DNA of 64,000 nt from Planktothrix rubescens CCAP 1459/22 (GTDB lineage: Bacteria; Cyanobacteriota; Cyanobacteriia; Cyanobacteriales; Microcoleaceae): assembly GCA_904830895.1 (NCBI GenBank), contig LR882958.1, positions 2,536,001 through 2,600,000 on the forward strand, given 5' to 3'. The notes below the pieces were generated by a model that was not told where the DNA came from, did no database searches, and saw nothing but the letters and a program-made list of their open reading frames with translations. A program made the position numbers and the translations under genes. Of the stretch, positions 1-15,424 are shown piece by piece; the stretch's first letter is position 1; each line of letters opens with the position of its first letter.

Positions 1-432
1 CAAAATCTCTAATAGAGGTGGGACAGATGCGGCTCCTGTACCCGCTAATGCCCCAATTGCGGAACCTTTGACCACCGTATCCTCATCCTCTAACAACGCT
101 TTGATCAAAACCGGAACCGCTTCCGGGTCAGCAATCAACGTTAAGGTTTTTGCCGCAGCCCTTCGGACAACCGGGTTGGGATGATTAGCCAGCGCAGTTA
201 GTAAAAAGGGAACAGCAGGTTTTCCCACTTGACCCAACGCTTCCGCAAAACCCAGTCTTACCATCCCCCGTGTATCCCCTAGACACTCCACCATTTGTTT
301 GATTAGGGTAAGGTCGCTAGAGTCAAAACCGTTAGCGGCTAACTGTTGATTCACCCTCGCCAACAAAATATCTGTTTCTTCAGGAGACAGGACAACAGCA
401 TCATTTCCAGATAAAGTTTCCGAGTTAGACAT
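1..432 (-). CDS. HEAT-repeat bilin lyase-like protein (3' part missing), CpeF candidate
   Basis: The reading frame starts at the ATG complementary to 430-432 and runs off the window edge, so only the first 144 residues are visible. After about 40 polar residues it consists of HEAT/Armadillo-type helical repeats with the motifs GMVRLGFAEALG, PVVRRAAAKTL and DTVVKGSAIGAL. This is the pattern of the E/F clan of phycobilin lyases and their relatives. It is the last visible gene of the cpeCDESTR operon and follows the 79-residue gene by about 23 bases. The location and repeats suggest a lyase or chaperone for phycoerythrin, possibly CpeF, which handles the doubly linked bilin on CpeB. That name is inference. 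A general HEAT-repeat scaffold such as NblB is the alternative. Confidence 0.7.
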   Translation of the reverse strand, partial: MSNSETLSGNDAVVLSPEETDILLARVNQQLAANGFDSSDLTLIKQMVECLGDTRGMVRLGFAEALGQVGKPAVPFLLTALANHPNPVVRRAAAKTLTLIADPEAVPVLIKALLEDEDTVVKGSAIGALAGTGAASVPPLLEIL

Positions 433-455
433 ATATACAGATCAAGTGGGATAAC

Positions 456-695
456 TTAATTCTCAACACTCACCATCGCCTGTTGGCTGCGGAGTTCCTC
501 AAGTTTGGCATCAATTTGAGCCAAGATCGGCTCTAGTTGTGCCATTGCCTTTGTCTTGGACATTTTAGCCCGTTGCGCCGCAGTCAACGTTTCATTCAGG
601 AGGCGTTCTCGATACTGTTCTAGTTCCTGAATAACTTCTGCTAATTCGTCAGAAACAACAGGTTCTGTGCTAGTGATTTCGGTTTGTTCTGTCAT
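456..695 (-). CDS. small charged helical protein of unknown function in the cpe operon
   Basis: It encodes 79 residues, acidic at the N-terminus, then a heptad-like helix (ELAEVIQELEQYRERLL) and a second helix near the C-terminus (LAQIDAKLEELRSQQ). There is no signal peptide, membrane segment or cysteine. I do not recognise the family. It lies between cpeR and the HEAT-repeat lyase-like gene on the same strand, about 80 bases after cpeR and about 23 before the next start, so it is probably co-transcribed. The helical-hairpin shape would fit a small adaptor or assembly factor, but nothing visible proves a role. Confidence 0.6.
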   Translation of the reverse strand: MTEQTEITSTEPVVSDELAEVIQELEQYRERLLNETLTAAQRAKMSKTKAMAQLEPILAQIDAKLEELRSQQAMVSVEN

Positions 696-773
696 ATTTT
701 GATAATTTAGATTGGGATCTATTCAGATTTTCTCAGATTCGGTGACTCCGAGTAAACCTTTTTTATAAAACAT

Positions 774-1079
774 TTAGAATTGTTGATCAAACCGAGTATA
801 AAATGCTCCATACTTAATCCAATATTGTTTTAATTGATGATTAGGAACAGCTAAATAAGCCTTGGCTTGATAAAGAATCACCTGTCGATGGTTTCCCATC
901 CAAATTTTTTCCTTAATCGCCACAGAAATAAAAGTTCCATTCAAACTAGCGATGGAAGATTCAAATCTTTCAATGGCTGAATAATCTAAGGTTTCAAAAA
1001 TCAAAAAATTATCTAAAAAAATCAAATGGCGACTCCGAATCCATGCCTCCATTTTTTTTCGGGCGACTGGAGGTAACAT
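774..1079 (-). CDS. cpeR: CpeR, activator of phycoerythrin gene expression
   Basis: This 101-residue protein matches the CpeR family in size and features: an N-terminal basic stretch (ARKKMEAWIRSRHLIF), the FETLDYSAIERFE segment and a C-terminal segment ending KYGAFYTRFDQQF. In Fremyella diplosiphon CpeR is needed for expression of cpeBA in green light and is the last gene of cpeCDESTR, exactly its place here. It lies 43 bases after cpeT. CpeR has no recognised DNA-binding domain, so how it activates cannot be read from sequence. It presumably couples linker-operon expression to the cpeBA-YZ cluster at 12248-15424. Confidence 0.88.
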   Translation of the reverse strand: MLPPVARKKMEAWIRSRHLIFLDNFLIFETLDYSAIERFESSIASLNGTFISVAIKEKIWMGNHRQVILYQAKAYLAVPNHQLKQYWIKYGAFYTRFDQQF

Positions 1080-1122
1080 TGTTTTTATTATTCATTTTGG
1101 TGTCAATCTACAAAAAAATTAT

Positions 1123-1707
1123 TCAATCCTCGCGGTGAAGTTCATCCGCAAAACTTTGTCGTTTTTCAAACCTTAAAGGGCCGTGTACCGATCCCCAAAC
1201 CTGTTCATCGGTATTAATATCCATGCCTCGATCTAAACTCACCCAAGTCGTTTCTGTGAGTTCCACATCACTAACTAAATAGGTTTGACGACCATTGCGT
1301 TCAATTAAACATTGATTCCCTTCAACCCGTCCTTGAAATCCATTTTCACAAGGTTGAAAAATCATCGAACAGTGATAACGACGTTCGGTGACAATTGGAG
1401 TCAATGTTCGTAAAATATCCAGATTGTGTCCGGCTCCAGCGTACAAATAAGCGTCTTTTATCCCATAATTTTCAATATAAATTTCATCGTTTTGTTCAAC
1501 TAATCTATGCAATCCTTGACGATAAGGACTCCACAGATCATAATCATAAGTTTGCTCAGAATAAAAACCAATGCCTTGAAAAAATTCCCAGGGTAAAGGC
1601 CGAAAAAAAATCCGAATATGAGCAAAATTTTTAGGGTCAGCAATCGTTTGTTTAGCATTGCTAAAATCCCCAGCGATACATCGAGAAAAACGTGGGATTA
1701 AGCTCAT
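1123..1707 (-). CDS. cpeT: CpeT/CpcT-family phycobiliprotein lyase
   Basis: The 194-residue protein belongs to the CpcT/CpeT calycin-like family. Visible signs are the aromatic stretch RIFFRPLPWEFFQGIGFYSEQ, the segment DLWSPYRQGLHRLVE and CENGFQGRVEGNQCLIE near the middle. CpcT attaches bilin to Cys-153 type sites of beta subunits; in phycoerythrin systems CpeT is assigned to the equivalent CpeB site (Cys165 here), which is family knowledge rather than something shown here. It follows cpeS after only 3 bases and precedes cpeR, the order of the classical cpeCDESTR operon. Confidence 0.9.
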   Translation of the reverse strand: MSLIPRFSRCIAGDFSNAKQTIADPKNFAHIRIFFRPLPWEFFQGIGFYSEQTYDYDLWSPYRQGLHRLVEQNDEIYIENYGIKDAYLYAGAGHNLDILRTLTPIVTERRYHCSMIFQPCENGFQGRVEGNQCLIERNGRQTYLVSDVELTETTWVSLDRGMDINTDEQVWGSVHGPLRFEKRQSFADELHRED

Positions 1708-1710
1708 CGT

Positions 1711-2244
1711 TTATTCTTGTTTTAAATCTCGGATTTCGGAAGAAAAAGAAGCCGTTACCACTCCAGTTCCAGCACTCGTTCTAATCAATGAAACTCGAAA
1801 TCGCAGATTCGGAGTAGCAAACCAAATTCTTTCTTCAGCCATCGCTCGATCATAGGGCGTTAACAGCGTAAAAACCCCTTCTGGATTAATCTGATAATCT
1901 CCCACAGAAGGAATGGTTTCTGCATAGCCTTGATCCCGCAATAATTGACCTTTTGTAAAGTCATTTTGATCGGGAATAGGAACTAAAATCGTTGTTCCTT
2001 TAATGATATTTCCCTCCTCCCAATCCGATTCTCCCTCCCAAGTCATCCGAAAAGGATGAGTAGAAGATTCAGGATCAATCTGATAAGAATGACACAAGGC
2101 AATTACATCAGAATCCTGTTCTTCTAAAGGCACAATATCAATAATAGAAGTAACAGCTTCAAAGTGACTAAAAGCCAGATGATGAGCGCTCCGTTGTGAA
2201 CGCCATCGTCCTAAAGACTGTTCAACAAATTCAGCAATATCCAT
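1711..2244 (-). CDS. cpeS: CpeS, phycoerythrobilin lyase for Cys82 sites
   Basis: The 177-residue protein is a CpcS/CpeS-type lyase. It begins MDIAEFVEQSLGRWRSQRSA and contains TPYDRAMAEERIWFATPN and a strand-rich C-terminal half ending SFSSEIRDLK, typical of the ten-stranded calycin barrel. CpeS attaches phycoerythrobilin to Cys82 of CpeB and forms the start of the lyase part of the operon. It sits about 140 bases after cpeE and 3 bases before cpeT. The spacer before it contains a strong hairpin (2350-2379) that may separate linker and lyase expression. A second member of this family lies at 10439-11026. Confidence 0.9.
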   Translation of the reverse strand: MDIAEFVEQSLGRWRSQRSAHHLAFSHFEAVTSIIDIVPLEEQDSDVIALCHSYQIDPESSTHPFRMTWEGESDWEEGNIIKGTTILVPIPDQNDFTKGQLLRDQGYAETIPSVGDYQINPEGVFTLLTPYDRAMAEERIWFATPNLRFRVSLIRTSAGTGVVTASFSSEIRDLKQE

Positions 2245-2349
2245 GCAGAAAATAAAAAGAGTATCATAGAAGCTATGTCAAGAGAAAAACGATTTTCAAT
2301 GTGGGTAATTAAAACCTAACCCTTGTCAGTTTTAACAACCCACAGGTTC

Positions 2350-2379
2350 AATTTTAGGGGTGAAGATTCCCCCAAAATT
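2350..2379 (-). terminator. hairpin directly after cpeE (processing or attenuation site)
   Basis: On the minus-strand transcript the arms AATTTTGGGGG and CCCCTAAAATT pair over 11 positions with one G-U pair and an eight-base loop. No U-tract follows, so it is more likely a partial terminator, RNA-end stabiliser or processing site than a full terminator. It lies a few bases beyond the cpeE stop, before cpeS. Confidence 0.55.
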
Positions 2380-2385
2380 CAACAG

Positions 2386-3144
2386 TTAGACCATCTCAGT
2401 AATACTGAGAATTTTACCCCCAGTCTTCTGAATATTTTGAATATTTTGAGACAGTTGGGAATAACTGACACAGCAGGTCTTATTCGCCAGTTTTGACAGC
2501 GAATTTACGCCTTTTGTTACCACAATCCGAAACCGCTTTTCTTGAGCGCCACCTTGACCCAAGGAAGACACCTTGATTTTTTGGGGTAAATTGGTAGCAA
2601 CACTGGAAATTAATTTAGATTGGTGTTCACTGTCACTGGTAGCGGCACCACCTAATAAATTGATTGTCCGATTAAAGACAACATTTTTAATCCCCGTTTG
2701 TGTGGTGTTACTGCGAGGATAGGGAACACAATTTTCTCCGAAGTTGTTCAGATATTCTGCACTATCGAGATAAGAATCAATTTCTGCTGCGTAACCTTGT
2801 GAAATACAAATTTGAACATGAGCAGAAATTTCCGCTTGATCTAACGGTGCCCGTCCCAATAAATGCTTACAGTTTAATTCAATAAACCGATAGGCAGAAT
2901 TAGGGTCAAAAAACAGAGATTTGTAGAGTTCTGATTGAGCGATTGCCCGCACAAAACCCCGCACGGTTAAATCTCGATTTCGCAGTAAAGATTCTGCCGT
3001 TTGATTCCGTTGACTTTCCAACAAATGAGCATTACCCAAGACCTGTTTATAAACGGCTCGGATAATCACTTGTAAATCTTCTTCTGTTGTATTAGGACGT
3101 AATTCTAGGCGTTCTGATGTGAAACTTGGAGTTAAAGTTGTCAT
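2386..3144 (-). CDS. cpeE: CpeE, phycoerythrin rod linker polypeptide
   Basis: The 252-residue protein has an N-terminal PBS linker domain (about residues 20-150; EEDLQVIIRAVYKQVLGN, LNCKHLLGRAPLDQAEI, EIDSYLDSAEYLNNFGEN, VPYPR) and a C-terminal CpcD-like domain (about 195-252; FRIVVTKG, GGKILSITEM). Such linkers place phycoerythrin hexamers in the rod and tune energy transfer. It is the third linker gene of the cpeC-D-E run. Assignment as CpeE rests on order; the three linkers are paralogues and E and D could be swapped in function. The start ATG is preceded by GAGGAA at a good distance. Confidence 0.86.
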   Translation of the reverse strand: MTTLTPSFTSERLELRPNTTEEDLQVIIRAVYKQVLGNAHLLESQRNQTAESLLRNRDLTVRGFVRAIAQSELYKSLFFDPNSAYRFIELNCKHLLGRAPLDQAEISAHVQICISQGYAAEIDSYLDSAEYLNNFGENCVPYPRSNTTQTGIKNVVFNRTINLLGGAATSDSEHQSKLISSVATNLPQKIKVSSLGQGGAQEKRFRIVVTKGVNSLSKLANKTCCVSYSQLSQNIQNIQKTGGKILSITEMV

Positions 3145-3180
3145 TGTTATTCTTCCTCGCTACAGGTGATTTTATTGCGT

Positions 3181-3208
3181 GTTGGGTGCTGAGTGTTCAA
3201 CACCCAAC
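3181..3208 (-). other. hairpin between cpeD and cpeE
   Basis: A perfect 8-bp stem GTTGGGTG/CACCCAAC with a 12-base loop lies in the 131-base cpeD-cpeE spacer. There is no U-run. Such stems often protect the upstream message or adjust the ratio of neighbouring linkers; this is inference. Confidence 0.45.
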
Positions 3209-3275
3209 TGTTCAACCGTTAATGGTTAATTCCTAATTCTTAATTCCGAATTAATTCTATGAAAATCAAACGGAA

Positions 3276-4043
3276 TTAGGAAACTTCATTGATGCTAATA
3301 ATCTTGCCACCGCTCCGATGAATGCGCTGAATTTGGGGAGTCATTTTCGCGCCGGAAACCAAATACACGGTATTGCTCAACCGACGGGGAGCGTCAAATT
3401 TAGACCCCTTGACCACAATTTTAAACGTCTTTTCAGTGGCATCCTGATAAGCCCCTAAACGGCCGCCAGAACTAGGCAACTGAATTTTATTGCCACTGTT
3501 TGTAGCCACCGCTTCCACCAAGCGAGAAGCCGTAAAAGCACTATCAACTCCCGCATAGCCCTGATATAAAGACAAAGTACGGTTATAGTTGACCTGTTTT
3601 TGTCCCACCTGAGTTTTTGCCCCTTGATAGTAGGGAACAATCATTTCTCCGAACATATCTTGATATTCCTGGCTATCGAGATAGGAATCAATCTCAGCAT
3701 CATATCCTTCCTCAATACAACGACGGATATGTTCTGAGAGTTCGGCTTGACAACTGGGAGCGCGACCCAGTAAATGTTTAAAATTGAGTTCCACAAACCG
3801 ATAAGGGGCGCAGGACTCAAAGTAACGACTCCGATAAAACTCCGATTTCGCCACTTGACGCACAAATTCCCGCACGGAGATACCGCCATTTGCCAGTTGA
3901 GATTCGGCTGTCACCAACCGTTCACTCTCCATAATATGGGGATTGCCTAAAACTTGTTTATAAACAGCCCGAATCACCGTCGAGATTTCATCGGAACAAC
4001 CCACTGTCCGCAGTTCTACGGGAGCATCGACAACAACGCCCAT
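3276..4043 (-). CDS. cpeD: CpeD, phycoerythrin rod linker polypeptide
   Basis: The 255-residue protein carries a PBS linker domain (about residues 18-150; ISTVIRAVYKQVLGNPHIMES, ELNFKHLLGRAPS, EIDSYLDSQEYQDMFGE) and a C-terminal CpcD domain (about 197-255; FKIVVKGSKFDAP, RIHRSGGKIISINEV). It joins PE hexamers within peripheral rods. It is the second gene after cpeC. Its ATG (complement of 4041-4043) follows AGGAGATCT at ideal spacing. Identity between the three linkers is strong in the linker domain, pointing to ancient duplication. Confidence 0.87.
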   Translation of the reverse strand: MGVVVDAPVELRTVGCSDEISTVIRAVYKQVLGNPHIMESERLVTAESQLANGGISVREFVRQVAKSEFYRSRYFESCAPYRFVELNFKHLLGRAPSCQAELSEHIRRCIEEGYDAEIDSYLDSQEYQDMFGEMIVPYYQGAKTQVGQKQVNYNRTLSLYQGYAGVDSAFTASRLVEAVATNSGNKIQLPSSGGRLGAYQDATEKTFKIVVKGSKFDAPRRLSNTVYLVSGAKMTPQIQRIHRSGGKIISINEVS

Positions 4044-4088
4044 GATTTAGATCTCCTAAAAATAGATTGAGGGAATTCAAGAAATCTG

Positions 4089-4154
4089 GGCAATAGAATA
4101 TAGAAAAAATAGGCAATCAATTCATCAATAAATGATGACTGAAATCCTATTGCC
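4089..4154 (-). other. inverted repeat between cpeC and cpeD
   Basis: The arms GGCAATAG (4089-4096) and CTATTGCC (4147-4154) can pair around a 50-base A+T-rich loop in the 167-base cpeC-cpeD spacer. This gives all three linker spacers of the operon a stem-loop. Without a U-tract it is not a clear terminator; differential mRNA stability is a possible role. Confidence 0.35.
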
Positions 4155-4210
4155 TCAGAGAAAATATTAAAAAGTTGGATTTTGGATATTGATATTAATC
4201 CCAAACCCAA

Positions 4211-5089
4211 TTAACTAATCGGAGTAATACTGGCAATCACGCCGCCTTGTTGGTGAATGCGCTGATATTCCTGAGATAGTTTCTCAAAGGGAACCAAAAA
4301 AACTTGGTTACTGCGACGGAATTTTGACACTCGGTTAACTTTCCCAGGAGAGCTATAACCCGTGACTTCGATGCGGTAAACTTTACCTTCTTCGGACGCC
4401 CCAACTCCATGACGGGTGCGAGCACTTCCGGTTGGGTCTTGGAAAGACCAACCATTGCCCATTGCACCCCCAGAAGGAGGAATTACAGCTAAGGGAGTTT
4501 TTTGAATCACATATCGATTCAGCACCGATGCTTTCCCTGTCAAACTACCTTTGAGGTCACTACTGGACGCGCCCCGCGCCAGAGCAAAGAAATGGGTAAA
4601 CCCAACCATGGTTTGACCGGGTTGAGTTTTATAACCCCGATAGTAAGGAACGAAGTTTTCGCCATAGGCGTTTTGGTATTCGTCGCTATCGAGATAGAAG
4701 TCGATTTCCGCTTCAAACCCTTGGGTATCTAACAGGGTACTGTGCACTCTCATTTCTTCTAAGTCCCGAGGGGCGCGACCTAGAAAATGTTTGAAATTGA
4801 GTTCAATAGACCGATAACGCGGACAACTCTCGAAAAAGCGAACGCGATACAAGTCAGATTTGGCAACAGCGCGGACAAATTCACGGACACTCAATTCTCC
4901 CCGCTTAAATTGAGATTCGGGGACGATGGCCCGTTCACTCTCCATGACGTAGGCATTGCCCAGAATTTGCCGATAAACCGCGCAAATCACGGCTTCGGCT
5001 TCTTCTTCAGAACGTCCGAGAATCATTTCTACCGGGGGGGTGTCTTCGTATAGACCCACGCCCAGTTGGGATGCTGGCCCAAAAACCAT
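4211..5089 (-). CDS. cpeC: CpeC, phycoerythrin rod linker polypeptide
   Basis: I start this protein at the ATG complementary to 5087-5089, because GAGGAG stands ten bases before it and the product (292 residues, MVFGPASQLG) then begins like known linkers. The frame stays open upstream to 5161, but that extension looks non-coding. It has a PBS linker domain (about residues 30-160; AEAVICAVYRQILGN, ELNFKHFLGRAPRD, EIDFYLDSDEYQNAYGE, FVPYYRG), a glycine-rich insert (GGAMGNGW) and a C-terminal CpcD domain (YRIEVTGYSSP, QQGGVIASITPI). The insert makes it longer than CpeD and CpeE. It is first in the operon, and its leader carries a palindrome at 5154-5170. Confidence 0.87.
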   Translation of the reverse strand: MVFGPASQLGVGLYEDTPPVEMILGRSEEEAEAVICAVYRQILGNAYVMESERAIVPESQFKRGELSVREFVRAVAKSDLYRVRFFESCPRYRSIELNFKHFLGRAPRDLEEMRVHSTLLDTQGFEAEIDFYLDSDEYQNAYGENFVPYYRGYKTQPGQTMVGFTHFFALARGASSSDLKGSLTGKASVLNRYVIQKTPLAVIPPSGGAMGNGWSFQDPTGSARTRHGVGASEEGKVYRIEVTGYSSPGKVNRVSKFRRSNQVFLVPFEKLSQEYQRIHQQGGVIASITPIS

Positions 5090-5153
5090 GAAACAATCTC
5101 CTCGATGCACGATAAGTTGGCGAAAATTAGGATTTCTGAAGTTTGTTACGAAA

Positions 5154-5170
5154 CTTAACAAGCTGTTAAG
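5154..5170. promoter_or_regulatory. perfect palindrome in the cpeC leader, possible operator
   Basis: CTTAACAAGCTGTTAAG is a 7-3-7 palindrome about 65 bases before the cpeC start codon. Its symmetry and place suggest a dimeric regulator site or a short hairpin in the 5' leader. TTGTTA-like words are known around phycoerythrin promoters of Fremyella, but identity with a known box is not established. Confidence 0.4.
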
Positions 5171-5368
5171 ATTTAAAAATCAGAAATTGTCTTGAAAGCT
5201 ACACTTAAGCCTGTTCGTTTAATGTTATACCAGACAAGGTTTTAGATTAGACATTTTCCCGATAATCCGTAAAGATTCGTAACATTTGCCTCTCTAGGAA
5301 GCTTTTATGTCTCATAAACCTAAAACTTGGTGTTGGTGACTCGAACCCTTTGTTCAGAGAAAAAGCGA

Positions 5369-5941
5369 TTACTGAAACCGTCTCATCGCCTCAATTAAAT
5401 GGTTAAAATAAGAACTCAATTCTATCTGTTGTTCCGGGTTAAATTCCTCAAGACCAAAGGTTTTTAAAGATTCTAACCCCACAATCATTGCAGGTAAAGG
5501 AACCTGTAATTCTTGATAGAGTAATTGCATATTATTCAAGCCTTCAGAAGATGTAAACGGAATACAACTTCCAGCAATTCCATAGGTAATACAACGAAGA
5601 AAATGCCAAAAATCTCGCCAACAAGCCTGCGCTCGTGCCGGAGGATATAAATCTCCCCCAACCTCAACAATTCCTGGATATTCATCTAACACTTTTTGAC
5701 GGGCAGATTCAATAATGGTATCCGCTTTATCTCTGAGTAATCGAGCAGATTCGAGAGCCGATAAAGACTCAGGAATCATCGTTGCAATCAGTTCTAAGTC
5801 CTGATCTGTTAAATAACGTCCTTGATCATCAGCCTGTTGAAAAATCTCAATTAATTCGGCTGAGTAGTGATTTTTCCAAGCCTCAAAACTCACAATTCTA
5901 GCAAGCGGAATTAATTGTTTAGCGCGTTCAGTTAACTGCAT
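5369..5941 (-). CDS. orphan phycobiliprotein-like protein, AplA type
   Basis: The 190-residue protein has a phycobiliprotein globin-like fold signature. The bilin-binding region of alpha/beta subunits (A-C-x-R-D, then an aromatic helix) is present as AQACWRDFWHFLRCITYG with Cys107 followed by Arg109-Asp110. LYQELQVPLPAMIVGLESL matches the LKETYxALGVP segment of phycocyanin-type subunits. The N-terminal helices are strongly diverged and it is longer than light-harvesting subunits (about 162-184). This resembles AplA of Fremyella, a phycobiliprotein-class protein without a normal antenna role, proposed as a possible sensor or bilin carrier. It sits alone between the cpeC and pebAB transcripts. 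The AplA name is inference; membership of the superfamily is well supported. Confidence 0.78.
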   Translation of the reverse strand: MQLTERAKQLIPLARIVSFEAWKNHYSAELIEIFQQADDQGRYLTDQDLELIATMIPESLSALESARLLRDKADTIIESARQKVLDEYPGIVEVGGDLYPPARAQACWRDFWHFLRCITYGIAGSCIPFTSSEGLNNMQLLYQELQVPLPAMIVGLESLKTFGLEEFNPEQQIELSSYFNHLIEAMRRFQ

Positions 5942-6059
5942 AAATTTGTATGGATTTTTGATAAAAATTCAACCGATGCCAGGGAGAATAAAAAAGGGAT
6001 AAATTATTCACTTGATATTATATAATACTCAAGATACCTCCCCTCCTCAACCTGAAATC

Positions 6060-6719
6060 ATGGAACTCAGCGAAATTAAAGCCTGTCTAGCCGACTCCGA
6101 CCCCAAAGACCGACTCAAAGCCATTCAAGAGTTGCATCAGTATGAACCTGAAATCGCTATTCCCTTACTCTTGAGTCAAATGCAGGAAAAAGACTTTTTA
6201 GTTCGGTCTTTTGTCGCAATGGGTTTGGGGAAACAACGCACCGCAGAATCCTTAGCCGCTTTGTTACAAATGGTTAAATTTGACCGCGATGCTAATGTTC
6301 GAGCCGAAGCCAGCAATTCCCTATCTCTATTTGGACAACCCGTTGCTTCTCATCTGGTCGCTGCATTTTACCAAGACGACAACTGGCTCGTGCGTCGAAG
6401 TATTATTGGAGCAATGGTAGAATTAGACTGTCCAGAACACCTATTAGAAATCTGTGTTTGTGGGATTGACGGAGAAGATCTAACGGTACAGGAAGCCTGT
6501 ATTGATAGTTTAGCCTTCCTCGCTAGTACCCCCCAACGAGAAAAAGCGTTACCACAACTTCTATCTAAAGTCAAGGATTCTTCCTGGCGAATTCGGGCGA
6601 GAGTCGCTCGCGCTCTGCATCGCTTTTCCAGTCCCCAAGCCGAAACCGCCTTAGAAGCATTGAAGCAGGATGAAGATCATCGCGTGGTGGCTGCGGTACT
6701 GGAAAATTTTGTAAGTTGA
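6060..6719 (+). CDS. HEAT-repeat protein, bilin lyase/NblB-like, upstream of pebAB
   Basis: Starting at the ATG at 6060 the product has 219 residues and is nearly all HEAT repeats: LADSDPKDRLKAIQELHQ, EKDFLVRSFVAMGLG, DANVRAEASNSLSLFG, DNWLVRRSIIGAMV, DSSWRIRARVARALHRF and a last repeat. The frame extends upstream to a weak TTG at 6012, with no obvious ribosome site for either. CpcE/F, CpeY/Z and NblB share this architecture, so it may be a lyase, bilin chaperone or phycobilisome-handling factor. It is divergent from the AplA-like gene and followed after 90 bases by pebA, so co-expression with bilin synthesis is plausible. I cannot assign a named family. Confidence 0.75.
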   Translation: MELSEIKACLADSDPKDRLKAIQELHQYEPEIAIPLLLSQMQEKDFLVRSFVAMGLGKQRTAESLAALLQMVKFDRDANVRAEASNSLSLFGQPVASHLVAAFYQDDNWLVRRSIIGAMVELDCPEHLLEICVCGIDGEDLTVQEACIDSLAFLASTPQREKALPQLLSKVKDSSWRIRARVARALHRFSSPQAETALEALKQDEDHRVVAAVLENFVS

Positions 6720-6809
6720 AGAAATGTTACTTTCTTTAAGCAAAGCCAGACAAGTCCGGTGGGATTCCGTTAATCTAAACGGATAACATTAAAATCCATA
6801 TCAACTTTT

Positions 6810-7538
6810 ATGTATCAGCCATTTCAGGAATTTTTAGAAGCAGAGATATTTTCTCGTTTCCAGGTGGTCAGTCGTTCTATTCCAGCCGGATTAGAGTCTA
6901 AGGTTAGTGAACGGGGAAAAAATCCCGCTCGGATTCAAAGTTGGTGCTACGAATGTCCTCAATTTCGGAAAATTCGCTACACCTATATTGATGCAGGTGA
7001 AACGGCTCAAATTTTTAATAGTGTCATTTATCCCAATTATCACTACGATTTACCCATTTTAGGGATTGATTTCCTCTCTTTTGGTAAAGTTAAAAATTTA
7101 GTTGTTTTAGACTTTCAACCCTTATTCCGAGACGAACAATATCAACAAAAATATATTGAACCAATGCGTCCGATTTGGGAAAAATATGATGATTTAGCCC
7201 AGGATTTACCGATGAAATTCTATGATGCAAATCAGTATTTTTCTAAATATATTCTGTTTGCTAAAACCGATGCAGCCACCGTTAGAGAAAAAGTATTTTC
7301 AGCTTATCAGGACTATATTCATCTCTATTGGGAATTATTACAAAATTCACAACCCCTTTCAGAACCCCAAAGAATTCAAGAGGTAATCAACGCCCAAAAA
7401 GCCTATGATCAATATAGCGCTGACCGAGATCCAGCATCCGGCTTATTTAGTAGCTACTTTGGTCATGAATGGGCGGAACGTTTTCTCTATGAATTCTTAT
7501 TTGAAGATGCTGTTCCCTTAGCGGTTGCTGCGAAATAA
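6810..7538 (+). CDS. pebA: 15,16-dihydrobiliverdin:ferredoxin oxidoreductase
   Basis: The 242-residue protein is a ferredoxin-dependent bilin reductase. It shows the family blocks [25 protein letters not shown] and [24 protein letters not shown]. PebA reduces biliverdin IX-alpha at the C15-C16 bond to 15,16-dihydrobiliverdin, which is passed to PebB. The order pebA-pebB with a 14-base gap is the usual operon, and length fits. Distinction from PcyA/HY2 relies on pairing with pebB and the FSSYFGHEW motif. It is located in the cytoplasm at the entry to the phycoerythrobilin pathway that feeds the neighbouring cpe lyases. Confidence 0.93.
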
Positions 7539-7552
7539 AAATTTTCAACAAT

Positions 7553-8287
7553 ATGACGCTCTATCAACCCTTTTTAGATTACGCCCTTACCCTTCTTAAA
7601 GAAAAACTCCCCCTGACTTCTTACCCCATTCCCCCAGGATTTGAACAAAAAGAAGAAATAACAGGAAAAGGAAAAAGACAGCAAGTTGTGATTACCACCA
7701 GTTACGGTTATCAAACACCCAAACTGCGACAAATTCGAGCTGCTCATGTTCAAGGGGGAGAAGCTTTACAAGTTCTCAACTTTGTTATTTTCCCCCATTT
7801 AAACTATGATTTACCCTTCTTTGGGGCTGATTTAGTCACCCTACCCGGGGGACATTTAATCGCCTTAGATATGCAGCCGTTATTTCATAATTCCACCTAT
7901 CAACAAAAATATACTGAGCCGATATTGCCTATTTTTCAACAGTATCAACAACATTTACCTTGGGGTGGAGATTTTCCCGAAGAAGCTCAACCCTTCTTTT
8001 CTCCGGCGTTTTTATGGACTCGTCCTCAAGAAACAGAAGTTGTTAAAACCCATGTTTTTGAAGCGTTTAAAGCTTATTTACAAGCCTATCTGGAATTTGT
8101 AGAACAAGCCCAACCCATTGATAATTCTGAGCAACGCCAAGACATTTTACAAGCCCAAAAACGTTATGTTAGTTATCGGGCAGAAAAAGACCCCGCACGG
8201 GGAATGTTTACTCGTTTCTATGGGGAAGAATGGACTGAAGAATATATTCACGGGTTTCTATTTGATTTAGAACGTTATCTGGAGTAA
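7553..8287 (+). CDS. pebB: phycoerythrobilin:ferredoxin oxidoreductase
   Basis: The 244-residue protein is a second ferredoxin-dependent bilin reductase, with [26 protein letters not shown] and [25 protein letters not shown]. PebB reduces 15,16-dihydrobiliverdin to phycoerythrobilin, the chromophore attached to CpeA and CpeB. It follows pebA by 14 bases and the two probably channel the intermediate. A hairpin at 8332-8350 could terminate the transcript before the unrelated ATPase gene. It has a slightly longer N-terminal region than PebA (GKGKRQQVV insert). Confidence 0.93.
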
Positions 8288-8331
8288 TCCGCGCCGTCGA
8301 GACGGAGATTGTAATATTTTATTTATTGTAG

Positions 8332-8350
8332 GGGTTTGGTCTTCAAACCC
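8332..8350 (+). terminator. putative terminator hairpin after pebB
   Basis: The arms GGGTTTG and CAAACCC pair perfectly around a five-base loop about 45 bases after the pebB stop. The following bases are only moderately T-rich. It is a reasonable end for the pebAB message. The same segment also resembles short repeat debris seen elsewhere in the window. Confidence 0.45.
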
Positions 8351-8463
8351 TATTTAATCCTGGGTTTAGAGGGACATCATCCCTACAGAATTTTTGCACA
8401 ACTTGTTTAGGACTGCTATAATAAGTTGAATTCAGAGTTTTAGAGCAATGTTTGATAAAAGTC

Positions 8464-9624
8464 ATGAAAATTTTAAGTATAGAATATCACGACAAAGAAT
8501 ACGATTGGAGCTATAAACCTATAGAGTTATCATCAAATTTAACTTTAATGGTGGGAATATCAGGAGCCGGAAAAACTCAGATTCTTAAATCAATTTTTAA
8601 CTTAAAAAAAATAGCTAATGGTGCCTCTTTGAATGGAGTCAAATGGAATGTTACTTTCCAGACTAGATCTCAGGTAATTTATCGATGGGATGGAGAATTT
8701 GAGACAGAAAAATTTGATCAAGATCTGTTTCAACTAGAATCAGAAGATACTCCAAAGGGTTTTAATCTTTTAACAGAAAATTTGTACAAAGATGAAAATC
8801 ATCTGATTCAGAGAGATGCAGAAAAAATTATATTCAAACACCAAACTACCCCTAAATTATCACCAACACAAAGTATTATACATTTGCTGAATCAAGAAGA
8901 AGATATTTATATGGCTAAAGAAGAACTTGATAGAATTTACTTTAGTGATCCTGATAGAACATCGAATGGGATTTATGGATTATCCCTTGCTATTTTTAAA
9001 AAATGTGAAAATTATTCCTTAGATCAGATTCAAGAAAGTGATATTCCTATCCCCATAAAGCTGTCTTTAATTTATCGTAAATTTCCCGATCAATTTCAAA
9101 TTATAAAACAGAAATTTATAGATATTTTTACACAAATTGAAGATATTAAAATAGAACCTATAGATACTAATAATTTCTCCTTACCCATGTCTTTAAGTAA
9201 AATTTTAAATGAATCTACAGTGATTAGCCTTAAAGAAAAAGGAATTATTTCTTGGATTAAACAATCTAGAATTTCTGCTGGGATGTTCAAAACATTAATG
9301 TGTTTAAGTGAACTTTTTTTATTACCAAAAGGAAGTTTAATCTTAATCGATGAATTTGAAAATAGTCTAGGAGTTAACTGTCTTGATAGTTTAGCAGATA
9401 CCCTATTATCTGAGGAACGTGATTTACAAATCATTATGACAAGCCACCATCCTTATATTATTAATAATATCAACCCTAGCCACTGGAAAATTATCACCAG
9501 AAAAGGAGGAATAGTAACGGTAAAAAATGCTCAAGATTGGGGAATTAGACCCTCAAGACAAAAAGCATTTATTGATTTAATTAACCTGTTAGAAGAATAT
9601 CCAGAAGGAATTGATCAAGCATGA
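8464..9624 (+). CDS. AAA/OLD-like SMC-type ATPase, first gene of an ATPase-TOPRIM pair
   Basis: I choose the ATG at 8464 (386 residues) over an in-frame TTG four codons earlier. The protein is an ABC/SMC-class ATPase like AAA_15/AAA_21 and OLD proteins. Walker A is GISGAGKT (residues 31-38), a signature-like ISAGMFKTL starts near residue 270, Walker B is LILIDE (292-297, Asp296, Glu297) and an H-switch TSHHP lies at 326-330. The middle carries an A+T-rich, poorly conserved helical insert. Its stop overlaps the start of the TOPRIM gene by four bases, so the two are translationally coupled. Known relatives of this arrangement serve in antiphage or nucleic-acid surveillance. Codon use is visibly more A+T-rich than the surrounding pigment genes, suggesting transfer. 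No DNA-binding domain is recognisable. Confidence 0.85.
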   Translation: MKILSIEYHDKEYDWSYKPIELSSNLTLMVGISGAGKTQILKSIFNLKKIANGASLNGVKWNVTFQTRSQVIYRWDGEFETEKFDQDLFQLESEDTPKGFNLLTENLYKDENHLIQRDAEKIIFKHQTTPKLSPTQSIIHLLNQEEDIYMAKEELDRIYFSDPDRTSNGIYGLSLAIFKKCENYSLDQIQESDIPIPIKLSLIYRKFPDQFQIIKQKFIDIFTQIEDIKIEPIDTNNFSLPMSLSKILNESTVISLKEKGIISWIKQSRISAGMFKTLMCLSELFLLPKGSLILIDEFENSLGVNCLDSLADTLLSEERDLQIIMTSHHPYIINNINPSHWKIITRKGGIVTVKNAQDWGIRPSRQKAFIDLINLLEEYPEGIDQA

Positions 9625-10313
9625 ATCTTTATATTCTTGTTGAGGGAAAAAATACAGAGAAAAAAATTTATCCATCTTGGCTGAGTTATCTTTTGCCACA
9701 ATTGAAAAGAGTTAACTTTTATGATCAGGTAGATAAAAATAGTTACTTTTTAATTAGTGGTCACGGATATCCTAATATTATTGAGCATGGTATTCCTAAT
9801 GCAATAGATAAAATTCATGAAACGGGTAAGTATAACTATTTGGTAGTTTGTCTTGATGCAGATGAAGATACGGTAGAAGATAGAAAAACAGAGGTTGATG
9901 AGTTTATTATAAACAATAATATTGACCTTGGAAAAACCGAGCTTGTGACTATTATTCAAAATCGTTGTATAGAAACATGGCTTCTGGGAAATAGACGAAT
10001 GTTTAATTCAATACAACCGAAGGAAAGCTTGTTATTAGATTATGCTAACTATTATGATGTTTCTACGGAAGATCCAGAAATGATGGGAAGCTATACTCAT
10101 AAAAATCATGCAGATTTCCATTATGCTTATTTAAAAAAAATTTTTAGAGCAAACAATAAAGTTTACACGAAGAACAAGCCACGAGATGCACAAGAACGTT
10201 ACTATTTAGAACAGTTAATGCTAAGAATTCAAGAACAACCTCAACACTTAAAAACTTTTCAAGACTTGATAGAATTTTGTAATATGATTAGGCAAAAATT
10301 ATCAGATTCATGA
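9621..10313 (+). CDS. TOPRIM-like protein (DUF4276/DUF4435/RloB type), partner of the ATPase
   Basis: The 230-residue protein begins with a beta strand and invariant-looking glutamate, LYILVEGKNTEKK (Glu8), followed by VVCLDADEDTVEDR with Asp79-x-Asp81. This Glu plus DxD arrangement is the metal-binding signature of TOPRIM nucleases, topoisomerases and primases. A conserved-looking CIETWLLGNRRMF block follows, as in DUF4276-type proteins paired with AAA ATPases. It overlaps the ATPase gene at ATGA. By family analogy it may be a nuclease or toxin controlled by the ATPase, but the substrate cannot be read. Exact family membership is uncertain. The C-terminal 80 residues are basic and helical. 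Confidence 0.78.
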   Translation: MNLYILVEGKNTEKKIYPSWLSYLLPQLKRVNFYDQVDKNSYFLISGHGYPNIIEHGIPNAIDKIHETGKYNYLVVCLDADEDTVEDRKTEVDEFIINNNIDLGKTELVTIIQNRCIETWLLGNRRMFNSIQPKESLLLDYANYYDVSTEDPEMMGSYTHKNHADFHYAYLKKIFRANNKVYTKNKPRDAQERYYLEQLMLRIQEQPQHLKTFQDLIEFCNMIRQKLSDS

Positions 10314-10438
10314 ACAGGTAGCATAAGTCTATAAATTAATTTTAGCTAAAGGGTTAAAGTGATCGCTCTCATCTCAAGAAACCGAGTTTATAATTCAGAT
10401 TCTATTGAGAAACCCGGTTTCTGATGGTCTACCTTCCC

Positions 10439-11026
10439 CTAAATTGAAAGTAACGCTCTTTGACGATTGGTTTCCATCATTGCATCTAATTCAGAAGGCA
10501 AAACACAGCGACGTTCAGAAGAATAAGTCATCAAATTAACACCATTCATCACCTTAACGGTACTAACTCTCACCCGAAAATTATCCGTAATAAACCAACA
10601 ACGTTCTTGACCTTGATTGCGTTCATATTCAGTATCAATTGTTAAAACCCCATCATCAGCAAACTGATAAATCCCCACAACCGGAATGCCTTCAACATAG
10701 CCTTTATTGCGGAAGAATTTACCATAACGGGGATTATCTGGATTAGGAACATCAATCAAAATAGCGCCATAATTAGGATTAGGTTCTCCCTCCTTAAAAT
10801 TTCCCTGCCACATAAAACTAGCCCCTCCAACCACTGAATTAGAATCAATTCCTTGTTCTGAACAAATTTCTAAGATAGTCGGATCAGTTTTATCTAAAAC
10901 TTTAATAATTAAATTCGATTCTCCCGATTCATCCGCAGCCGAATCAAAGCGATGAACCGCTCTTTGTGAAAACCACGTTCCTTCACTCTTTCTAAAAAAA
11001 TCCATCATCGTCATCGGTAATTTCAT
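10439..11026 (-). CDS. second CpcS/CpeS-family phycobiliprotein lyase
   Basis: The 195-residue protein is a paralogue of CpeS: it opens MTMMDFFRKSEGTWFSQRAV after a short leader and contains ERCWFITDNFRVRVS and MTYSSERRCVLPSE, typical of the CpcS/CpcU/CpeS calycin lyases. It is longer than CpeS at 1711-2244 and resembles the CpcS/CpcU branch, which serves Cys82/84 of phycocyanin and allophycocyanin beta (and allophycocyanin alpha) subunits. Which of S, U or a PE-specific role applies cannot be settled here. It is a single-gene minus-strand unit next to the ATPase-TOPRIM pair and upstream of the cpeB cluster on the opposite strand. Confidence 0.85.
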   Translation of the reverse strand: MKLPMTMMDFFRKSEGTWFSQRAVHRFDSAADESGESNLIIKVLDKTDPTILEICSEQGIDSNSVVGGASFMWQGNFKEGEPNPNYGAILIDVPNPDNPRYGKFFRNKGYVEGIPVVGIYQFADDGVLTIDTEYERNQGQERCWFITDNFRVRVSTVKVMNGVNLMTYSSERRCVLPSELDAMMETNRQRALLSI

Positions 11027-11303
11027 TGACCGTTTTTCTCCTTGTTAATTAAAGTTATAGCGATTAAAATGACTATTAAACCTCTATTTTTACACCTTTA
11101 CAGACTTATAGCAGTTACCATCAAAAGTGATTGACAAAGACGAATCCAGCAAACCCAAACCAGGGAACTAGGGAATATCCCCCTTAATTTCTTCCTTCGT
11201 GTCTTCGTGTCTTTGTGGTTCCTTCTACAGAAAAAAAATAGCAAAGGTATTGTAAGTCACCACGCCCACCGATAATATTGGGCATGATTTTTCTTCAACA
11301 ACT

Positions 11304-12101
11304 ATGACCATAACCCGCCATGAAATTGTACAACTTCTCCAACAAGGCAAAAGTTTAGCCAAAGCCGACTTACAAAGCCTTGATCTGCATTCCCTCGACT
11401 TATCAGGAGTTGATTTCACAGGAGCCAACTTAATTCAAGCAGATTTGAGTCATGCTAACCTCACCGGGGCGAACCTCACCGGGGCTGATTTACGCGCAGC
11501 GAACCTAACAGGAGCGAACCTCACCCAAGCAATATTGGCAGATAGTCTATTATTTCGGGCTAATTTACAGGGATGCTGTCTGAATCAGGCTCAACTTGAA
11601 GGTGCGAAACTGCAACTGGCTCGTTATGATGCTCATACCCTCTGGCCAGAGGGATATAACTACCGCAACTCCGGGGCTGTGGGGCCAAAAGCCAACTTAA
11701 ACGGAGTCTATCTGAATACGGCAAATCTGAGAAATGCCGATTTGCAGGGGGCTAACCTGCGGGGAGCCTATTTGAGTGGAGCCGATTTGAGTGGGGCTAA
11801 CTTAGAAGATGCGGCATTAAGCGGGGCGAACCTTCAGGGAGCGTTCTTAACCGGGGCTTATTTACGCAAAGCCCGTTTAGTTGGGGCAGAAATTCAGGGG
11901 GTAGATTTCCGGGGGGCGGACTTAACCGATGCTAACCTAGAGCAAATTGAAAGTATAGCTGGGGCTGATTTTACTTTAGTTCAAGGGTTGAGCGAGGAGA
12001 CAAAAGCAATGTTGTGCAGTCGTCCGGCGGAGGAATTAGGGACTTGGAACCAGTTTACCCGCCACAATACCGCCGAAAGTTTGGGGTTAGTTGAGGGTTA
12101 A
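11304..12101 (+). CDS. pentapeptide-repeat protein
   Basis: The 265-residue protein is built from two blocks of A(D/N)LXX pentapeptides (about residues 25-95 and 125-215), separated by a spacer around LARYDAHTLWPEGYNYR. A short C-terminal tail (about 215-265) is not repetitive. The spacer WPEGY is common in cyanobacterial pentapeptide proteins. The fold is a right-handed quadrilateral beta helix; the function is unknown. It lies directly before the cpeB promoter on the same strand, so it could be an occasional read-through partner, but a 146-base gap suggests a separate promoter for cpeB. Confidence 0.85.
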   Translation: MTITRHEIVQLLQQGKSLAKADLQSLDLHSLDLSGVDFTGANLIQADLSHANLTGANLTGADLRAANLTGANLTQAILADSLLFRANLQGCCLNQAQLEGAKLQLARYDAHTLWPEGYNYRNSGAVGPKANLNGVYLNTANLRNADLQGANLRGAYLSGADLSGANLEDAALSGANLQGAFLTGAYLRKARLVGAEIQGVDFRGADLTDANLEQIESIAGADFTLVQGLSEETKAMLCSRPAEELGTWNQFTRHNTAESLGLVEG

Positions 12102-13377
<1,276 letters not shown>

Positions 13378-13429
13378 TAGATTGTAACGGACTGAATTTA
13401 AGTCAAATTATTTTTGCCTTAGATTCTAT

Positions 13430-13500
13430 AAACCTGGGTATTCTTAGTACAATGCTTTGCCACTCTAAAGCCGAGTATTGCTCAAAGAGTCCCCAGGTTT
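13430..13500 (+). terminator. hairpin between cpeA and cpeY, likely attenuator
   Basis: The arms AAACCTGGG (13430-13438) and CCCAGGTTT (13492-13500) pair perfectly, enclosing 53 bases that include a smaller stem. T-rich sequence follows. It would let most transcripts end after cpeBA with limited read-through into cpeYZ, matching the need for much subunit and little lyase. No transcript data are available here. Confidence 0.6.
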
Positions 13501-13521
13501 GTTGGTTTTAGAACACCGATT

Positions 13522-14802
13522 ATGGATAAACGTTTTTTTAATCTTTATAATTTAACCGAAGAACAGGCGATCGCCCTCTTAGATACTCCCCAGGAGGAAA
13601 TAGGAGAGGATGATTCTCGCTATGTAGCCGCTTCCCATTTAGTTAATTTCCCCACAGAAAATACCATACTTGCTTTAATTCGGGCGGTACAAACCCTTGA
13701 TCCATCTCTGGATAATCAGATTGTACGCCGCAAGTGTGTAGAGACATTAGGACGATTGCAAGCTACCCAAGCGTTATCAATCTTTCATACCTGTTTAGCC
13801 GATCCAGATTGTTATATGGTTGAGAATACAGTTTGGGCTCTGGGCGAAATTGAGGTCAGTGATCCAGACATACTCGAAGACATGGCTCAATTATTAGAGA
13901 AACCAGGACAACTGTATCGGACAATTATTCATACTCTAGCTAAATTAAACTATCAACCCGCTTTAGAACGGATTCGCCAATTCATTGATGCCGATGATCC
14001 CCCCATTGCCTGTGCTGCGCTGTCGGCGGTTTGCCGTCTGAGTCAAGATTACAGCTTAATGGAGCAAGTTGTTGCCTTTCTACAGCATGAAAATGTCAAT
14101 GCTCGCCGGGGTTGTATTCAAGATCTAATTGATGCCCGTTATTATGTCGCAATTCCTGAAATTGCACGCTGTCCGGTGTCTTTAGTATTTCGACTGCGAG
14201 GAATTCGCTTATTAGGAGAACTGGGAGACAGAAGCGGAGAGATTAGCTTTAAGGAAATTCAACCCAGTTTAGAACAAGTCTTGCGAGATCATCCCCATGA
14301 TCTAAACTTAGTCCATGAATATGATCAACCACCGACCCTAGAGTTTTTGATTCGAGAACTGTATCAAACGGATTTTGGCCGTTGCTATTTAGCCAGTAAA
14401 ACCCTATTAGAAACCTATTCCCAAGAAGCTCCAGAAGCTTTAATGGCAACCTATAAAGAAGAAGCCCATAATGATTATGGAGCCCATTATCACGTTGTTA
14501 AACTCTTGGGTTGGTTGCGGTATGCTCCTAGTTATGATCTCTTAGTGGAAGCATTACAAAATCCTGCCCCTCAGTTCCAGAAATCAAGAGCCGCAGCAGC
14601 CCTAGCTTTAGCTGAACTGGGAGATCAACGGGCGATTCCCCTGCTAATCAATAGTTTAAACACCCGAATCTGGGATTTGAAATATGCTACATTAATGGCC
14701 TTGGAACAGTTGGGGGATTCTACAAGCTATACCTTGGTGGCGAATGATCCGGATGGGTTAGTTCGAGCCAAAGCAGCCTCACTTTCCGCCGTTTATGCCT
14801 AA
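13522..14802 (+). CDS. cpeY: CpeY, phycoerythrobilin lyase for CpeA Cys82
   Basis: The 426-residue protein is a HEAT-repeat lyase of the E/F clan, with the start MDKRFFNLYNLTEEQAIALL typical of CpeY. Repeats include NQIVRRKCVETLGRL, CYMVENTVWALGEIE, ARRGCIQDLIDARYYVAIP and a C-terminal block KSRAAAALALAELGDQRAIP. CpeY, helped by CpeZ, attaches phycoerythrobilin to Cys82 of CpeA. The length agrees with the family. It lies behind the cpeBA attenuator and 19 bases before cpeZ. Confidence 0.93.
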   Translation: MDKRFFNLYNLTEEQAIALLDTPQEEIGEDDSRYVAASHLVNFPTENTILALIRAVQTLDPSLDNQIVRRKCVETLGRLQATQALSIFHTCLADPDCYMVENTVWALGEIEVSDPDILEDMAQLLEKPGQLYRTIIHTLAKLNYQPALERIRQFIDADDPPIACAALSAVCRLSQDYSLMEQVVAFLQHENVNARRGCIQDLIDARYYVAIPEIARCPVSLVFRLRGIRLLGELGDRSGEISFKEIQPSLEQVLRDHPHDLNLVHEYDQPPTLEFLIRELYQTDFGRCYLASKTLLETYSQEAPEALMATYKEEAHNDYGAHYHVVKLLGWLRYAPSYDLLVEALQNPAPQFQKSRAAAALALAELGDQRAIPLLINSLNTRIWDLKYATLMALEQLGDSTSYTLVANDPDGLVRAKAASLSAVYA

Positions 14803-14821
14803 CCCATAATCAATAAAAATA

Positions 14822-15424
14822 ATGACCACAGATTCAGTGTTTGAACAATTAAAGCATCCTAATCCCAATCTCAGAGAAAGAGCAATGGCAGAAATAGCCC
14901 AAACCCGGAATCAGGAAACAATTCCTCGACTGATGAGTATTTTAGGGGAAGAAGATGTCACCTATCGGCGCTCGGCGGTGAAAGCCTTGGGTTATATTGG
15001 TTCGGATTCTGTTCCTTCCCTGGTCAAGACTTTGCTTGAAAATGATGACTCGACGATTCGCTCCAGTTGTGCCAAAGCATTAGCCCAGGTTGCCTATAAT
15101 CATCCTGATCAGCCTTTTCCTGTGGAGGGAATTGAAGGACTAAAAATTGCCATTAATGATCCGAATCCCGTGGTTTATATTGCTTCTGTGATGGCGTTGG
15201 GAGAAATTGGATTACCGGCTTTAGATGTTTTATTAGAAGCGTTACAAACAACAGATAATTTAGGGATGGCGGTAGCAATGATTAATGCTATCAGTGGGAT
15301 TGCTGATCCGCGTGTATCGGAATTTTTAACCCAATTAGCGAGTGATGAAACTGCTGATACTTATCTCCGCGAGTCTGCTACAAGTGCTTTATCCCGTTTG
15401 GAATTGGTGTTAAATAACCAGTAA
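14822..15424 (+). CDS. cpeZ: CpeZ, chaperone partner of phycoerythrin lyases
   Basis: The 200-residue protein is composed of HEAT repeats: NPNLRERAMAEIAQTRNQE, VTYRRSAVKALGYIG, STIRSSCAKALAQVA and a C-terminal repeat in TYLRESATSALSRLEL. CpeZ acts with CpeY and other lyases and stabilises phycoerythrin beta, rather than being a lyase on its own. Size and position directly after cpeY fit. It closes the pigment island; the next 321 bases hold only repeats before smc. Confidence 0.9.
   Translation: MTTDSVFEQLKHPNPNLRERAMAEIAQTRNQETIPRLMSILGEEDVTYRRSAVKALGYIGSDSVPSLVKTLLENDDSTIRSSCAKALAQVAYNHPDQPFPVEGIEGLKIAINDPNPVVYIASVMALGEIGLPALDVLLEALQTTDNLGMAVAMINAISGIADPRVSEFLTQLASDETADTYLRESATSALSRLELVLNNQ

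Follow-up and report, generated by a model that had tools for sequence, protein, structure and literature searches.

What does a small two-gene cassette, wedged between two pigment genes, do for a cyanobacterium? The cassette lies at positions 8464 to 10313 of a 64,000-nucleotide stretch of Planktothrix rubescens CCAP 1459/22 (contig LR882958.1, positions 2,536,001 to 2,600,000), hereafter the window, and comprises an ATPase gene followed by the gene of a TOPRIM protein. We consider it probable that the cassette is an abortive-infection system of the split ATPase-TOPRIM kind, self-contained and spread horizontally. This assessment rests mainly on the motifs of both proteins, the match to the RloB profile, the obligate pairing of the genes, and residence in a prophage hotspot. 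ATPase-TOPRIM pairs recur in bacterial immunity, and for several of them the trigger and target are unsettled. The lineage matters because the second protein of the window stays under the cut-offs of Pfam and NCBIfam, and PADLOC models are matched only in part.

The two genes and their motifs are given below; conservation was counted in family alignments of 61 ATPases and 65 second proteins, the window copy included in each.

8464..9624, forward strand: ABC/SMC-head-type ATPase gene, 386 amino acids, presumed sensor and regulator.
8554..8577, forward strand: Walker A GISGAGKT, ATPase residues 31-38; G31, S33, G34, G36, and K37 in 61/61, T38 in 60/61.
9274..9285, forward strand: ABC-signature-like SAGM, ATPase residues 271-274; S271, G273, and M274 in 61/61.
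9337..9354, forward strand: Walker B LILIDE, ATPase residues 292-297; D296 and E297 in 61/61.
9439..9453, forward strand: H-loop region TSHHP, ATPase residues 326-330; T326, H328, and H329 in 61/61, S327 and P330 in 60/61.
9621..10313, forward strand: OLD/RloB-type TOPRIM protein gene, 230 amino acids, presumed nuclease effector.
9642..9644, forward strand: TOPRIM Glu8, invariant in 65/65.
9855..9863, forward strand: TOPRIM Asp79-x-Asp81; D79 in 65/65, position 81 D in 40 and E in 25.
9972..9974, forward strand: Glu118 in Q-N-x-C-I-E-T-W; E in 64/65 and D in one, aligned to the glutamate of RloB N-x-x-F-E-x-W.
10170..10172, forward strand: Lys184 of the TOPRIM protein, K in 63/65, presumed to have a role.

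An earlier note on this DNA had listed both open reading frames (ORFs), their ATGA overlap, GISGAGKT, LILIDE, TSHHP, Glu8, and Asp79-x-Asp81, and all of them were found where it had placed them. Glu118 is a further conserved acidic residue, absent from that list. Across the 61 ATPases, the Walker A and B residues, the S-x-G-M motif, and T-S-H-H show little or no variation, which is beyond chance. The SAGM of the window is SSGM in most relatives; we read it as the ABC signature, and the name is an interpretation. The ATPase scored 50.9 bits against AAA_21 of Pfam, above the cut-off of 27, and PtuA and AriA are among its matches. In the second protein, the pattern Glu ... Asp-x-Asp (or Glu) of the TOPRIM superfamily (OLD-like) is conserved across the family. 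Both proteins thus carry conserved residues of their predicted active sites.

The profile searches proposed in the earlier note placed the TOPRIM protein below threshold, with RloB (PF13707) at E 0.0067 (17.1 bits, cut-off 31.5), DUF4276 at E 0.02, and no match to DUF4435 at E 1; NCBIfam gave no match for the window's protein. Across 24 family members, window included, the Pfam matches at E 1 were DUF4276 in 20, RloB in 14, and OLD-like_TOPRIM in one (E 0.0038). The note had made its reading depend on TOPRIM homology of the second protein, and the homology held: hhalign against cyanobacterial RloB gave 93.8% (E 1.7e-7), with the E / DxD / E motifs in register. Against OLD proteins hhalign gave 0.5%, with a comparison set of three OLD sequences only. 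RloB is itself reported as related to OLD_TOPRIM in PMC10440598. The structural model of the TOPRIM protein gave modest fold matches to OLD TOPRIM structures, and OLD TOPRIM domains were the best named matches. Foldseek alone returned no match for this model at E 1e-3, and the TOPRIM profile matched no PDB sequence at E 10. All eight annotated records carrying a copy label the TOPRIM gene 'hypothetical protein'.

By analogy, the pair would most likely work like AbiL and PARIS. The ATPase would form an oligomer that keeps the TOPRIM protein inactive, as proposed from AriA/AriB of PARIS and from AbiL, and a phage product or activity would free or activate the TOPRIM protein. This protein would then cut nucleic acid via two-metal catalysis, and the resulting growth arrest would keep the phage yield of the infected cell low. 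For PARIS, PMC12409363 describes AriB as held by AriA and as cutting transfer RNA (tRNA) once a phage trigger has released it. RNA, perhaps tRNA, may be the likelier target here, a preference to which we give about an even chance, with DNA as the alternative. A related explanation takes the pair for a DNA nuclease with an ATPase of Rad50/SMC-like type; in the manner of OLD or Gabija, it would attack the invading DNA itself and not RNA. It overlaps the abortive-infection reading, in which DNA is the alternative target. The modest fold matches are to OLD; however, a similar fold does not determine the substrate, the split layout matches PARIS and AbiL, and RloB is the closest sequence relative tested. 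We regard this explanation as unlikely, although it is the strongest of the competing ones.

The two genes behave as one unit. Their ORFs overlap by ATGA at 9621-9624, and the ATPase gene stands directly upstream of the TOPRIM gene in 83 of 84 loci (80 genome contigs and four viral contigs); the lone exception begins 145 nucleotides from a contig end. The gap between the genes was -4 in 50/84 loci and -1 in 16/84, the TOPRIM start being unaligned in two. The genes are also side by side in a further 28 loci, whose genomes are partly shared with the 84. ATPase and TOPRIM distances were correlated (r 0.818, 54 loci), and none of 999 permutations reached that value. Among the matches listed, DNA similarity to the loci of relatives ends within a few bases of the two ORFs. 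Adjacency is thus near-obligate and divergence correlated, and the sequence identifies the pair as a predicted translationally coupled unit of an SMC-head-like ATPase and an RloB/OLD-type TOPRIM protein. Additionally, one Chloroflexi bin carries two ATPase-TOPRIM pairs in tandem (L141:5082-8690).

The pair is flanked by pebA and pebB (NCBIfam equivalogs) and by a CpeS-family gene (PF09367), which agrees with the earlier placement between pebB and a bilin lyase gene. Its A+T-richness was likewise borne out: G+C was 29.5% in the ATPase gene and 30.2% in the TOPRIM gene, versus 39.6% in the window and 37-40% in pebA, pebB, and cpeS. Third-position G+C was 20-22% in the pair versus 28-30% in these three genes. 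Comparison with the empty site of a relative (G008) delimits one inserted segment.

8404..10391, no strand: inserted segment relative to the empty site of G008, where one base lies between the flanks.

Window positions 2317-8403 align with 259-6350 of locus L079, and 10392-15414 with 6352-11348. Phycoerythrin-type pebB was found in two of eight same-genus genomes (98% and 96% identical). The second same-genus genome with pebB (G004) also lacks the pair at the locus and has 51 bases of other sequence between the flanks. In four more distant relatives (L080-L083) the pebB region is rearranged, the next alignable gene lying 0.06 to 0.7 kb past pebB. In one relative (L074, G023), the pebB-like gene is interrupted by stops. 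G008, empty at pebB, carries the pair on a different contig. In the TOPRIM tree, the other copies of the genus form two well-supported groups, and the window copy, which has no well-resolved place of its own in the tree, is not joined to either. We conclude that the window pair probably arrived recently at its place between two convergent pigment genes and is unrelated to pigments. A mobile-element carrier was considered and rejected: the pair provides the only long sense ORFs of the insertion, and no long repeat pairing the two insertion ends was found. Searched against the genome, the two non-coding ends of the insertion (69 and 87 bases as queried) gave no match other than themselves.

The position between pebB and a cpeS-like gene raises the possibility that the pair belongs to the phycoerythrin island. 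In 58 relatives, pair and pebB co-occur above expectation (12/6/13/27, Fisher p 0.022), in a test that ignores kinship; we put this association down to kinship. A TOPRIM match was found in 18 of the 58, as fragments only in G002 and G034. Six of the 18 (including G002) have no pebB, whereas 12 have it; in these 12, mostly drafts, the match is on another contig than pebB or, in G050, 1.2 Mb apart. Conversely, 13 of the 25 pebB-bearing relatives have no match. The earlier note had asked whether the pair is a conserved part of pigment metabolism at this site; one same-genus site is cleanly empty, the other has no pair, and the pair occurs in Bacteroidota, Pseudomonadota, and other phyla. The empty site and this distribution refute a pigment function, and we give a pigment-linked pair practically no credence.

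A further alternative is a decayed, non-functional insertion. Promoter-like sites around the pair were no more frequent than in shuffled sequences, no terminator-like site was found around it, and other copies of the pair are decaying. However, both frames are open in the window and the conserved residues are in place, and we hold decay of this copy to be very improbable.

A genome scan with the single TOPRIM protein found no relative, and a profile scan gave 154 matches, of which 80 were kept. The TOPRIM tree has rows from Cyanobacteriota, Bacteroidota, Chloroflexota, Planctomycetota, Spirochaetota, Myxococcota, Acidobacteriota, Hydrogenedentota, Thermodesulfobacteriota, and Pseudomonadota, many rows being metagenome bins. 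In a class-wide genome sample, five of 126 genomes had a match, the own genome included. Seven of 72,556 plasmid records had one, and the plasmid hosts of the pair are Planktothrix, Nostoc, Bernardetia, Proteus, Acinetobacter, and Methylovorus. On p1 of Planktothrix agardhii the pair adjoins a XamI restriction system and a DUF262 gene. On Methylovorus pMsip02 (L026), an inovirus-like plasmid with major capsid, Zot, and integrase genes, the pair comes directly after the integrase gene. The small mobilizable plasmid pSU8507_OXA-72 of Acinetobacter pittii (L028) carries the pair with blaOXA-72 and yoeB/yefM. A Proteus terrae plasmid of 9,989 bases (L024) carries the pair twice, the ATPase region of the second copy being annotated as two ORFs; the single ATPase-TOPRIM distance recorded for L024 mixes both copies. 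Only one of 50,697 phage records matched, an unverified, unannotated 4.2-kb scaffold. Four viral contigs matched, of which L164, L165, and L166 are near-copies.

The pair also resides in P2-like prophages. Two of the viral contigs, L164 and L167, have it between a gpA-type nickase gene (phrog_91) and a portal protein gene (phrog_68). L167 has a 178-codon ORF between nickase and pair and a 92-codon ORF between pair and portal. In L164, terminase, scaffold, and capsid genes follow the portal gene, which we take to be the P2 order. With the L164 pair as DNA query in distant mode, 5,426 genomes of Escherichia coli gave a single match, in strain 23CRST009. Its annotation shows the same nickase-pair-portal arrangement, the gpA gene being marked incomplete. 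Both frames are open there; the ATPase is 38% and the TOPRIM protein 40% identical to those of the window, and of 20 key residues checked 19 agree, Asp81 being Glu. PMC9122126 describes the gpA-gpQ interval of P2 as a hotspot that harbors old, tin, and several tested antiphage systems, and also other cassettes. The pair is therefore present in a defence hotspot of P2-like prophages, and this residence favours a defence role. The copy in an E. coli P2-like prophage also makes the system directly testable in standard laboratory strains.

Several observations weigh against a defence role. No clear PADLOC enrichment was seen around the pair: 92 neighbour ORFs from 23 non-redundant cyanobacterial loci of at least 15 kb matched 86 PADLOC families, many via the same four helicase ORFs, versus 61 families for 100 control ORFs from 20 stretches of nine genomes. 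The comparison is coarse, as it covers the 25 commonest families among the matches listed. Chromosomal copies also keep fixed company. Eleven of 14 Nostocales loci adjoin mnmG, a tRNA modification gene (L105, L106, L109, L111, L117, L124, L130, L134, L135, L137, and L138), and 10 of these 11 also adjoin a vanY-like gene. The pair is divergent to mnmG in these loci, the vanY-like gene usually lying downstream; L115 also has the pair beside mnmG. Several loci of Microcoleus and kin have recQ directly upstream of the pair (L118, L120, L121, L125, L126, L133, and L036; L039, L041, and L043 are repeat fetches of three of these genomes). In two same-genus loci, L046 (G002) and L047 (G001), the TOPRIM gene is internally deleted or truncated and the ATPase ORF is open.

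We followed the mnmG site through 147 genomes of the family of G174, presumably the Nostocaceae of GTDB, which includes the Calothrix of L106. mnmG was found in 145 genomes and a TOPRIM match in 30. By coordinates, mnmG is the neighbour of nine full-length matches, of which one has an internal stop, and of six remnants; the remaining 15 of the 30 are not beside it or are on other contigs. This suggests that the pair has long resided at the site in some lineages and has decayed there repeatedly. Since 145 of 147 genomes have mnmG and few have it beside the pair, mnmG does not need the pair. As a pointer to a tRNA target mnmG was rejected, and its proximity is left as a site effect.

The same sites bear on a toxin-antitoxin pair that stabilises plasmids and chromosomal sites, with the TOPRIM protein as free toxin, the ATPase as antitoxin, and defence secondary or absent. 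Such a pair would suit the plasmid copies and the fixed Nostocales sites with decaying remnants. PMC10440598 reports a RloB-like TOPRIM:AAA pair of Clostridium algidicarnis (TOPRIM_OLD:AAA), tested for neutralisation in E. coli, that acts there as toxin and antitoxin. However, in some copies, several of them from metagenome bins, the ATPase is broken and the TOPRIM frame next to it open, which is mildly against a free toxin. Deleting either PARIS gene was described as non-toxic in PMC9122126, and residence in the P2 hotspot points to defence. We therefore rate stabilisation as improbable.

With abortive infection as the preferred reading, the remaining question is how far the pair departs from known systems. 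The earlier note had called it defence-like and possibly of an undescribed subtype, a view with which PADLOC agrees: the best matches are to AbiL, then AriA and HEC-01, all partial or weak. We tentatively propose, with more doubt than confidence, that the pair represents a distinct, undescribed split OLD-type lineage. This lineage would span ten phyla or candidate phyla as a bare 1.85-kb cassette on plasmids and on inovirus-like and P2-like elements. It may stand apart from PARIS, AbiL, Gabija, and Septu and encode a trigger-gated RNase (perhaps a tRNase) that has a trigger and a target of its own. The lack of a helicase or methylase partner, to which the note had drawn attention, is not odd, because PARIS and AbiL are also described as two-gene systems (PMC9122126, PMC10440598). 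Among the papers listed in searches of the open-access literature, none was on this ATPase-TOPRIM lineage, which is weak evidence of absence.

Among single-polypeptide systems, OLD class 1 and Gabija (class 2) combine an ATPase and a TOPRIM domain, whereas the pair has them in two ORFs; the OLD classes are reviewed in PMC10568477. According to the same source, Gabija adds the helicase-like GajB, and no helicase neighbour of the pair was found in the window. In Septu and retron-Eco7, PtuA is described with the HNH protein PtuB as partner (PMC10440598); here the partner is a TOPRIM protein, with no HNH match at E 1. The RloB family (PF13707) shares the EGxxTE, DxD, and N-x-x-(I/F)-E-x-W motifs, which align with the TOPRIM protein. 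However, a search at E 1e-3 of up to 1.5 kb around 15 RloB loci of relatives (L188-L202; L199 shortened by a contig end) found no ATPase of the family studied here. Two RloB genes that pass the Pfam cut-off lie elsewhere in the genome of the window (G000:C1:3667808-3668425 and 3349413-3350009), and the first (L195) likewise lacks such an ATPase within 1.5 kb. In the candidate system HEC-01 of PADLOC, on which we found no paper in the open-access literature, HEC-01A matches the ATPase at 5.7e-12 and HEC-01B the TOPRIM protein at 0.00018, weakly and in part; the best HEC-01B match of a family member is 1.3e-7.

PARIS and AbiL are the closest in architecture. PARIS is a split AAA ATPase (AriA) and TOPRIM nuclease (AriB), complete as two genes like the pair. 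Its AAA_15/AAA_21-type ATPase has a counterpart here in the AAA_21 score and the AriA match, and PMC9122126 describes PARIS in the P2/P4 hotspot setting that the pair shares. Its partner AriB is a DUF4435 protein, for which neither the window protein nor the 24-member tally gave a match at E 1. AbiL, an abortive-infection system of Lactococcus plasmids, is described as an ATPase and a TOPRIM_OLD/RloB-like effector in two genes (AbiLi and AbiLii; PMC10440598). The layout expected of AbiL, an AbiLi-type ATPase gene directly upstream of the effector gene, is present here. The hosts of AbiL differ, and it was compared via the PADLOC models, not the lactococcal sequences. AbiLi is the best PADLOC match of the window ATPase (2.3e-20), over profile positions 79-267 of 326 (58% of the model), and matches 22 of 22 members of ATPase set A2, window included. 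AbiLii is the best match of the TOPRIM protein (4.3e-6), over positions 32-64 of 170, with a second model at 0.004 (9-65 of 125), and at E 0.01 it matches 58 of the 65 second proteins of the family, that of the window included. Because the DUF4435 profile gave no match and the AbiLii profile is not covered over most of its length, we file the pair under neither PARIS nor AbiL. Its wider setting is that of the AAA:RloB-type pairs, AbiL included, which PMC10440598 places in a network of toxin-antitoxin and defence systems.
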